From contig JAVYNU010000008.1 in assembly GCA_038735125.1 (NCBI GenBank), positions 32,272 to 96,271 of the forward strand: a stretch of 64,000 nucleotides of DNA. The letters are read 5' to 3'. The DNA is from Ignisphaera sp. Its GTDB lineage: Archaea > Thermoproteota > Thermoprotei_A > Sulfolobales > Ignisphaeraceae. The notes beneath the pieces are model-generated. The model was not told the origin of the DNA and did no database searches. It saw only the letters and a list, made by a program, of their open reading frames with translations. Positions 24,934 to 27,707 of the stretch are shown piece after piece (within the stretch, counting starts at the first letter, position 1; the number at the start of each line of letters is the position of its first letter). The position numbers and the translations under genes are program-made.

Positions 24934-26069
24934 TTATCTTTCTCTTCCCCTTGACATAACCTCGTAGCACACCTCTCCGTTTTTCTCCATAGACTTTAGA
25001 GCCTTGTAAACACCCCTTAATGTGTACTCTCCATTCTCTTTCCAAATCTCATAGGCAGTTGCAAGAGATTTCCTAGAGAGAGTCTCTATTATACGGCTCT
25101 TCAATAAACTGTGCCTCCCACTCCTCACAACATGTTTTATCCCGCCACTGAGTATAGCTATAGAATTGCCTATGTTCTCAGCTATGTAGTAGATTATAGC
25201 TGATATCGGCTTGGCTTTGATACCCCTTTGGGCAAGCGTTTTCAGCGCTTCGTATATCTCTTCATCAGATATCCTAACAGTTTTTATCTCCTGGCTTAGC
25301 CTAAGCAGATCCGGGGTATTCTGTGACCCTGCAAGAACAGCTACAATGCTGTAGCTTGTGTCGAACCCTGCTTTCCTCAGATCCTGAATACCCTTTAGAA
25401 TTGAGTATGCAAGCAAACCCGTTTCAGTTGGAACCACAATATTTTCTACCCTAGTATTAGATTCATAGACTTCGAAGACTATTGTCTTGAGCCCCTCAAC
25501 AGTCAATGGATTGAAGTAGCTGATGTAGATAAGGCTGTCTCCCCCTGCACTGCAAAGACGTGTTCTTCGCCAATCCAATGTTTTTCGACGCAAAATACAT
25601 TAGATCATCTACTAAAACTTCAAAGAGGTTTTGTATCTAGACAGAGATTCTATTAGAGCCAATAGCATGCTCCATATAGTACACAACAGATTTTGTGAAA
25701 TCTTCAACATATTGAACAATAAACGACTTGTTGATGGCGTTGCCAAGACTCATAACATGCGATACTATGACTGCTGAAGCGCGATCTGCGTAGGAGCCCG
25801 TTGGATTCCTAGACTCATCTTTGATCAGAACGCCCTCGATTTTGTATATGGGTGTTAGAGCCTCGCCTAAGGAAAATTCTTTTCCAAAAGATGGTAGGAG
25901 GAATGAATATCTCCAAACACCAGTTAGCATAGTCAACCTTGAACACAGGGTTTTCATAGTCTATAACGAGAAGACCTCCGCATACTGGGCAAGAGCATGT
26001 AGAAGGGGTTTCACGAAAAACAGCTTTGCAGTTTATGCATCGGAAAAAGTAGTTTTTTCCATTGCTCAC
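24934..26069 (-). pseudogene. Threonine-synthase-like protein with winged-helix C-terminus, frame broken
   Basis: Three frames together encode one protein. Frame 1 (from 26069) gives a zinc-ribbon N-terminus with CINC and CSCPVCGG. Frame 2 (about 25930-25545) gives GVWRYSFLLPSF, then SLGEALTPIY and NPTGSYADRAS. Frame 3 (about 25545-24934) gives NPLTVEGLKTIVFEVY and the fold's C-terminal half, then about 60 residues resembling a winged helix (SLLKSRIIETLSRKSLATAYEIW). Defects are a shift near 25930, an in-frame TAG at 25637-25639 and a shift in a G5 run near 25540. The PLP-binding lysine (GSxKDR in threonine synthase) is alanine (GSYADR), so the ancestor was probably not a catalyst. It starts on the last base of pdxT, so the order is pdxS-pdxT-this gene. 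Confidence 0.75.
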
Positions 26070-26666
26070 TACCTCTTCACCAAGCCAATGAAGTATCTAT
26101 ACACCTTGTCATCTCCTGTGATCTCGGGGCAGAAGGTTAATGCGATTAGATTTCCCTGCTTTGCTGCAACACCGATTTTACCTGTCAGCGGGCGTTCTAT
26201 ATATCCTGTTATCCTGGCCTCGTTCCAAGCCTCGACTATTCCAGGAGCTCTAATGAAAGCTGCAATAACATCTCCTATCTCGTCGATGTATACCCTGGCA
26301 ACAAAGCTGTTTTTCTGGCGCCCGAAAATATTTCTGATTACGTTTATATCCATTAGTTCGAGTGTTGGCTGATTGGTCTCCCCCAAGACCCTGTCGGAAA
26401 CCTTTTTTAGCCATTACTATAGCCCCTGCGCAGGTGCCCATAACCGGTGAGCCACTTCTTGCAAATTCTCTGACTGCATCAACCATTCCCTTTATCAACA
26501 TTAGTTTTCCTATTGTTGTAGACTCTCCCCCAGGTATTATCAAAGCATCTATGTTTCTCAGATCACTTGGTGTTTTAACATATTGCACTTCTATCCCCAG
26601 CCCCTTCAGCGCCTGGTAGTGCTCTAGGTAATCTCCTTGCAGTGCTAGGACACCTACCCTAGCCAC
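26069..26666 (-). pseudogene. pdxT: PdxT, glutaminase subunit of PLP synthase, with a frameshift
   Basis: The N-terminal part (VGVLALQGDYLEHYQALKGLG, PGGESTTIGKL, catalytic MGTCAGAI) lies in one frame. The rest (GETNQPTLELMDINVIRNIFGRQKNSFVARVYI to the end, with FCPEIT near the C-terminus) is in another. The switch falls in a G5 run at about 26379-26383: one G fewer restores GLGETNQPTLELMDI. The usual C-terminal FHPE histidine is FCPE here (LTFCPEITGD), which would remove the catalytic His of the triad. PdxT feeds ammonia to PdxS, whose gene ends three bases upstream. Decay and a sequencing error are both possible. Confidence 0.85.
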
Positions 26667-26669
26667 CCT

Positions 26670-27707
26670 CTACTCACCTCTAATCTGCATCAGCTCCTCT
26701 GGTCTCAGCTTCCTAATATCGATTCCAGTCATAGACACCTTTTCAGAGACCATTTTCTGTGTCTCAACAACAGTCTCTGGGTCATCGTAGAATGATGTAG
26801 CCAAGACTATTGCTCTCGCCCTCGCCTCTGGGTCACCACTCTTGAATATGCCTGAACCGACAAAAATGCCGTCGGCTCCAAGCCACATCATGAGTGCAGC
26901 ATCAGCTGGTGTGGCTATGCCACCTGCGGCAAAGTTTACCACAGGTAGCCTGCCGAGTCTTGCTGTAAGCAATGCTAGTTCATATGGGACCTTATTCTCT
27001 TTGGCGTAGACCCAGATAGCCTCGTAGTCTCCAGCCATATAATATCCTCTAAGCGTTGCGATATCCCTGTTAACAAGCTTCATATGCTTAACAGCCTCGG
27101 CCACATTACCTGTTCCCGGCTCCCCCTTTGTCCTAATCATCGATGCCCCCTCGTATATTCTCCTCAAGGCCTCTGGCAAGTTTCTAGCCCCATTTACGAA
27201 GGGTGTTTTGAAAGCCCATTTATCTATATGGGCCTTTTCATCAACTGGCGTCAAAACCTCACTTTCATCTATCAAGTCAACCCCTATCTCCTCGAGCAAC
27301 CTAGCCTCCTCAGCATGTCCAATTCTGCACTTTGCTGAAACAGGAATTGTTATAGAGTTCATAACAGCTTCTACGACCTTCAAATCAGCTGTTCTAGTTA
27401 CACCACCAGCTGCTCTAATATCGTATGGAAGCTTATCCAGAACCATTACGCCAACAGCACCAGCATCCTCAGCTATAGCAGCTTGCTTCTCGTTGGTGAC
27501 ATCCATTATAACTCCCCCCTTAAGCATAGATACAAAGCCGTATCTAACAAGTGGGGTTCCCTCTCTAATGGGTATTACCTCTAGACCCTCCTCCCTGGCC
27601 CTATCCCTCAGCTCAAGCAGACCATATATGAGATCCCTAAGTTTCTCAAGCCAAATATACGAATCTACCAACTTCAATGCAAACCAACCCAGAGCTGTCG
27701 TTGACAT
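26670..27707 (-). CDS. pdxS: PdxS: pyridoxal 5'-phosphate synthase, synthase subunit
   Basis: 345 residues from ATG 27707 (STTALGWFALKL). Family hallmarks: SMLKGGVIMDVTN, the Schiff-base lysine segment VMVLDKLPYDIRAAGGVTR, SAKCRIGHAEEARLLEEIGVDLIDESEVLTP, and the glycine-rich phosphate site NFAAGGIATPADAALMMWLGADG with FVGSGIFKSGDPEARA. It makes PLP from ribulose/ribose-5-P, glyceraldehyde-3-P and ammonia. Extension to 27761 would run through the promoter palindrome TGAACGTTCA, so it is rejected. The N-terminus is about 25 residues longer than usual before the barrel. Confidence 0.94.
   Translation of the reverse strand: MSTTALGWFALKLVDSYIWLEKLRDLIYGLLELRDRAREEGLEVIPIREGTPLVRYGFVSMLKGGVIMDVTNEKQAAIAEDAGAVGVMVLDKLPYDIRAAGGVTRTADLKVVEAVMNSITIPVSAKCRIGHAEEARLLEEIGVDLIDESEVLTPVDEKAHIDKWAFKTPFVNGARNLPEALRRIYEGASMIRTKGEPGTGNVAEAVKHMKLVNRDIATLRGYYMAGDYEAIWVYAKENKVPYELALLTARLGRLPVVNFAAGGIATPADAALMMWLGADGIFVGSGIFKSGDPEARARAIVLATSFYDDPETVVETQKMVSEKVSMTGIDIRKLRPEELMQIRGE

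Follow-up and report, generated by a model that had tools for sequence, protein, structure and literature searches.

The window analysed here, a 64,000-nucleotide stretch of an Ignisphaera sp. genome (GenBank assembly GCA_038735125.1, contig JAVYNU010000008.1, positions 32,272 to 96,271), carries on its minus strand pdxS, then pdxT, then a gene for a threonine-synthase-like protein, here called R, and then queC. Comparative sequence analysis indicates that R is likely an archaeal regulator of vitamin B6, built on the fold of fold-type II pyridoxal 5'-phosphate (PLP) enzymes and independent of the bacterial regulator PdxR. The loss of the PLP lysine, the gene architecture, the linkage to pdxST and a palindrome upstream of pdxS are established by comparison across relatives, as are the co-occurrence of palindrome and R and the covariation of the operator with the recognition helix; together with orphan operators before B6-type genes, the last two support what an earlier note on this DNA had proposed, namely a fold-type II enzyme turned regulator by a route separate from that of PdxR. 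The explanation that best joins these findings, and which we consider quite probable, is that the lysine-less R, through its predicted winged helix, binds TTGAACGTTCAA before pdxS as a dimer and represses the synthesis or uptake of the vitamin while its supply is ample. R is likely such a B6 switch because, in the genomes compared, the palindrome stands before the B6 synthesis gene where R is present and was not found there in R-less relatives. Of the three outcomes that the earlier note had named as refuting its proposal, namely orthologues with the lysine, without a DNA-binding tail, or away from pdxST, none was borne out.

The R gene of the window (24934..26069, minus strand) is broken by frame changes and a stop into three reading-frame pieces: a zinc-ribbon-like CxxC/CPxCGG N-terminal region (25815..26069), the start of the PLP-enzyme fold (25637..25957), and the second half of that fold with the winged helix (24934..25593). 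Its interruption had already been noticed from the letters alone, and intact copies are present in relatives. At the PLP-lysine position the window reads GSYADR (25781..25798, alanine codon 25787-25789), in contrast to SFKDR in lysine-bearing homologues. The replacement by alanine described in the earlier note proved to be part of a family-wide loss, lysine occurring at this site in 0 of 50 aligned R loci of the same order, 0 of 100 aligned R homologues of a wider set (A 65, S 26, V 5, T 2, I 1, L 1), and 0 of 71 aligned R proteins with distant families included, three sets that overlap. As a control, motif-bearing frames picked up by the NF004170 threonine synthase model, with L267 added, were compared, and 28 of 30 retain the lysine; both lysine-less control frames (L304 and L333) have, by eye, a tail resembling a winged helix. 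Elsewhere the window's genome encodes a separate threonine synthase with SFKDR (L317). The predicted fold of R is that of fold-type II PLP enzymes, as in threonine synthase; five R members tested against NF004170 scored 79-130 bits (cut-off 421), below every listed NCBIfam threonine synthase cut-off. One search with the C-terminal piece of R returned 25 homologues, and a profile built from 20 homologues gave 223 matches at E<=1e-30; among the 120 matches listed, source names included threonine synthase, PLP-dependent protein, and hypothetical protein.

Because the VIA-align rows for the full R model mostly cover only residues 33-300, the tail was modelled and searched alone. This yielded a predicted helix-helix-helix-strand-strand (H-H-H-E-E) domain with a predicted local distance difference test (pLDDT) score of 88.8, which matched winged-helix proteins including TFE and PadR. 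The C-terminal domain of R, residues 308-370 of protein P0002, is predicted to be a winged helix; the winged-helix-like tail first suggested for the window copy can be traced there (24934..25125, minus strand, the last strand hit by a frame change) and recurs in models of relatives.

Across the order, 214 genomes were surveyed, and 50 of them contain R, at 52 loci in total; the main R pieces scored >=223.8 bits (other homologues reached <=143.8), and lower-scoring fragments in G000 and G101 were taken as parts of R. At 31 of the 52 loci no more than 5 kb separates R from pdxS, in the order pdxS-pdxT-R or R-pdxS-pdxT, so that the orthologues beside pdxST that the earlier note had called for do exist. 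The PdxS proteins linked to R share an N-terminal stretch starting KLVDSY-like, and their Pfam scores are lower than those of most PdxS proteins from R-less genomes of the order. Among 398 genomes of the phylum, R also occurs in families f16, f22, f31, and f35.

About 50 bases upstream of pdxS stands the palindrome TATTGAACGTTCAATA, whose core, with consensus TATTGAACGTTCAATAA, was found in all 29 pdxS upstream regions compared (28 relatives with R within 5 kb, plus the window; the fragmentary pdxS loci L093 and L117 were left out), centred 49-57 nucleotides before the conserved pdxS start. It precedes pdxS even in loci where R is the first gene, and 13-15 nucleotides beyond it towards pdxS there is a T-A-W stretch that fits a TATA box. 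In the window the conserved operator lies at 27726..27743 (no strand; minus-strand letters TATTGAACGTTCAGCAA), with its centre 57 nucleotides before the conserved first pdxS codon; pdxS itself (26670..27707, minus strand) is an intact open reading frame (ORF), and alignment with relatives places its start likely at the TTG at 27677. The earlier note had palindromic operators preceding pdxS, and three palindromes are indeed present, of which 27726-27743 is conserved; the TTGAAAC/GTTTCAA palindromes at 27768-27783 and 27820-27841 were rejected as the conserved operator, being found only in the window and L112 among the 29 regions. These two lie between pdxS and a divergent small gene and could belong to another regulator. 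A strict form of the pattern, GAACGTTCMRYAA, precedes pdxS at 31 of 37 loci in R-bearing genomes of the order versus 0 of 71 in R-less genomes, and variants stand at the six loci missed (G114, G132, G018, G048, G139, and G128). Elsewhere than before pdxS, pattern matches also occur in 24 R-less genomes of the order.

Co-occurrence was then assessed at loci other than those from which the pattern was derived. Where pdxS is truly unlinked to R (G034, G037, G134, G129, and G139), its operator scores 24-30 bits, and that of G006, where only a contig end separates pdxS from R, scores 20 bits; at the 17 R-less pdxS loci scored, the best value was 6.6 bits. The pdxS genes of G034 and G037 have Pfam scores like those of most R-less genomes, and the operator is nevertheless present. 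G155 has an R-type pdxS but neither R nor operator was found there (best 2.4 bits). Outside the order, the operator precedes 3 of 3 pdxS genes in families f35 and f16 and 8 of 9 in families f22 and f31, as TTGAACGTTCAA in f22 and TTAAACGTTTAA in f31; the sequence before the ninth is masked exactly at the expected operator place. In a phylum-wide comparison that rests on per-genome match counts, no match to TTRAACGTTYAA was found anywhere in the 17 pdxS-bearing R-less genomes of f22 and f31 (11 g89, 2 g160, and 4 g172). Four apparent exceptions from f31, g124 (G462, G517, G524, and G533), with pdxS, pattern matches, and no R at E<=1e-50, were not counted as such because R-like pieces turned up in all four under a looser search; G442 (87% complete) has pattern matches and no R even by the looser search.

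The recognition helix of R varies with the half-site it is paired with, as judged from the 56 of 71 aligned R proteins that have an assigned site (the other 15 are not in the comparison). All 49 proteins paired with a G-type half-site have Arg or Lys at residue 338, all 7 paired with TTAAAC have Gln or Leu there, and three further R proteins with a known G-type site (L093, L103, and L117) carry Arg338. At residue 342 Lys or Arg is the rule, with Ser in L138 and Thr in L139 as the exceptions, and these are the two loci with an altered operator centre. In three genomes that lack pdxS and showed no site by the strict pattern, namely G024 (L123), G026 (L136), and G027 (L131), residue 342 is Ser, Gly, and Ser, respectively, and an altered operator centre may explain why they appear siteless. 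This covariation, though of few events, ties R to the site at the level of sequence.

Sites beyond pdxS outline a predicted regulon. Of 20 orphan sites read in R-bearing genomes of the order, 14 lie within 60 nucleotides before genes of the following classes: ABC transporters (4), ECF S components (3), MFS transporters (3), amino-acid-permease-type transporters (2), a pyridoxamine-pyruvate-transaminase-like (PPAT-like) enzyme (1), and a radical-SAM gene adjoining an ECF operon (1), families that were database-assigned for at least one member of each class and otherwise by eye. Each of the three MFS targets has a PPAT-like gene immediately upstream of it on the same strand. Of the 21 orphan sites outside the order, all but G354:C1:1306722 were read, and 12 of these 20 precede the same classes, with eight permeases (two of the eight scanned with Pfam), three PPAT-like genes, and one ECF S component. 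The 14 R-bearing genomes of the order without pdxS include nine with orphan sites, eight of them before such genes and one (G112) before R. The best NCBIfam match of the PPAT-like enzyme L175 is pyridoxamine-pyruvate transaminase at 269 bits, below the cut-off of 600; three PPAT-like enzymes match PDB entry 2z9u best (184, 182, and 157 bits; next matches 149, 155, and 127), a record named aspartate aminotransferase which we take to be the Mesorhizobium pyridoxamine-pyruvate enzyme. The regulon probably extends beyond pdxST to 'B6 supply' as a whole, because the site precedes predicted ECF, ABC, MFS, and permease transporters and a PPAT-like enzyme in genomes without pdxST.

In G034 and G037 the pdxST operon has a radical-SAM gene as its third member, and a gene similar to it by eye follows the operator in G115 (L190, L191, and L185); a B6-related role for it is possible.

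From these observations we infer that the palindrome is bound by R. The protein would bind TTGAACGTTCAA as a dimer through its winged helix, and its dead active site may hold PLP or another B6 vitamer, PLP being the simplest choice, with no Schiff base. The ligand-bound protein would be the DNA-binding form, and R seated on the palindrome next to the likely TATA box and B recognition element (BRE) would block transcription, so that synthesis or import of B6 would be repressed when B6 is plentiful.

Several observations weigh against this reading. Besides the lysine, the PLP-loop Asn is replaced by Asp in 87 of 100 R homologues and the phosphate loop is changed from GSGGL to ETGLL (pocket residues were judged by alignment, not from model coordinates), and because of these further alterations PLP binding could have been lost. 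In families f22 and f31, R lies far from pdxS and is not linked to it. Six of the 20 orphan sites in the order have no such target (one precedes R, and five, in G044, G100, G114, G007, and at a contig end in G022, are unclear), as do eight of the 20 outside it (L285, L288, L290, L292, L293, L294, L298, and L300), and five of the 14 R-bearing genomes without pdxS (G004, G024, G026, G027, and G135) gave no match to the strict pattern, nor did a weight matrix detect a site near R in them. The pattern was derived from R-linked loci, which leaves the unlinked, R-less, and out-of-order loci as the independent tests; at least 2 of the 71 R-less pdxS loci (G172 and G175) start at a contig end with their upstream region outside the contig. 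Finally, the Fisher value of 2e-21 for the co-occurrence of operator and R is descriptive only because the genomes share ancestry, and given related genomes the change at residue 338 reflects maybe one or two events.

Among rival explanations, the main one reverses the sign of control: ligand-free R would bind the palindrome and, as an activator, recruit basal factors to the promoters of pdxST and the transporters, until a B6 vitamer released it. Archaeal activators can also sit just upstream of BRE/TATA, and the site does lie just upstream of the likely BRE/TATA box, but the palindrome abuts that box directly and a blocking of basal factors fits at least as well, so that activation seems to us possible yet on balance doubtful. 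It ranks as the main rival because the bacterial precedent runs opposite to repression, apo-PdxR reportedly activating pdxST with PLP as anti-activator (PMC5320631). Less likely still, R might control B6 genes and sense a ligand other than B6; its former substrate pocket could, for example, accommodate an amino acid, phosphorylated or not. The substrate of threonine synthases is itself a phosphorylated amino acid, and an R without the lysine and with altered Asn and phosphate loops would be in keeping with such a ligand; the targets, however, seem to have vitamin B6 and not amino-acid synthesis in common, comprising pdxST, the PPAT-like enzyme, and interchangeable predicted transporters in genomes without pdxST. 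That R is a dead remnant, or a partner protein of PdxST, with an unrelated factor binding the palindrome, would accord with its linkage to pdxST and with its position away from the supposed targets in f22 and f31, but is very improbable given the predicted winged helix of R, its co-occurrence with the operator at unlinked loci as well, and the covariation of its recognition helix with the operator.

R resembles PdxR and other MocR proteins of the GntR family in joining an enzyme-derived domain, the putative sensor, to a predicted winged helix. PdxR is reported to regulate pdxST together with salvage and transport genes and to bind beside pdxST (PMC5320631), MocR proteins combine an N-terminal GntR-type winged helix with an aminotransferase-like fold-type I sensor (PMC4944035), and MocR factors are reported absent from Archaea (PMC5320631). 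Like PdxR, R would regulate pdxST, to which it is linked at 31 of 52 loci and before which the operator is conserved; it has neither a fold-type I aminotransferase sensor nor an N-terminal GntR-type winged helix, and instead has a fold-type II threonine-synthase domain that lacks the lysine, followed at the C-terminus by the predicted winged helix. With threonine synthase (ThrC) it has the fold, the zinc-ribbon-like N-terminal region, and many framework residues in common, and it differs in the missing PLP lysine, the changed PLP loops, and the added winged helix. The archaeal thiamine regulator ThiR, with an enzyme-like ThiN sensor and a DNA-binding domain, is likewise an archaeal vitamin regulator made from an enzyme and a DNA-binding domain, though for another vitamin, with another enzyme fold and domain order. 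R would join the enzyme-derived vitamin regulators, with the sensor fold, the domain order, the operator, and the domain of life as its new features. In the literature searched, with few subscription journals covered and sources available in part, neither a regulator of vitamin B6 from Archaea nor a transcription factor of fold-type II came up.

We lean towards a wider reading, in which R founds a class of transcription factors descended from PLP enzymes of fold-type II and is the first archaeal vitamin B6 regulator, reading B6 with a dead threonine-synthase site, while some of its members are now named threonine synthase. The operator TT(G/A)AACGTT(C/T)AA would then reveal a B6 regulon that includes several families of B6 transporters not recognised as such so far (ECF, ABC, APC, and MFS), and a second lysine-less winged-helix family would indicate that the fold turned regulator more than once, or diversified afterwards. 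If so, bacteria and archaea each made a regulator of PLP supply from a PLP enzyme, using two unrelated folds; database names would need correction where R members are called threonine synthase; and the operator would offer a lead to transporters of vitamin B6, which in many organisms are described as awaiting identification (PMC9997740).

The second lysine-less threonine-synthase-like family, found in the same genomes, comprises proteins of 460-480 amino acids with the motif NP[ST]G[TS]F[IVL]DR and, by eye, a PadR-like winged-helix tail; its members are L023 (G000:C11:28967-30328), L012, L013, L014, L016, L018, L020, and L333, and in L018, L020, and L023 the gene stands just before a biotin-carboxylase-like gene. 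L304 (G093:C1:195565-196878) scores 703 bits for NCBIfam NF004170 'threonine synthase', yet has SFRDR for SFKDR and a winged-helix-like tail by eye, and the family name may be a misannotation.

Within the window, pdxT (26069..26666, minus strand) is broken as well, into two frames (26250-26666 and 26069-26386), while pdxS and its operator are intact. Compared with L112, the nearest relative among the loci compared (93% identity over the stretch with these genes), seven genes show five frame-changing gaps, four in R and one in pdxT, and none in pdxS, queC, the ABC ATPase gene (22855-23592), the ORF at 23549-24124, or the small divergent gene; R also has an in-frame stop. Because the gaps cluster in these two genes, they point to decay of R and pdxT here and away from sequencing error of uniform distribution, with error as the remaining possibility.

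Next after R, queC (24139-24885, minus strand) has as neighbours the ATPase gene of an ABC transporter and an ORF resembling a membrane protein (22855-24885 for the whole group), in an order kept in L028 and L112. On the other side of the operator, 27854-28126 encodes the divergent 90-residue protein, which is rich in Trp, Gly, and Pro and has no Pfam match, and at 29308-30289 two overlapping minus-strand membrane-protein frames look by eye like one frame-split gene.
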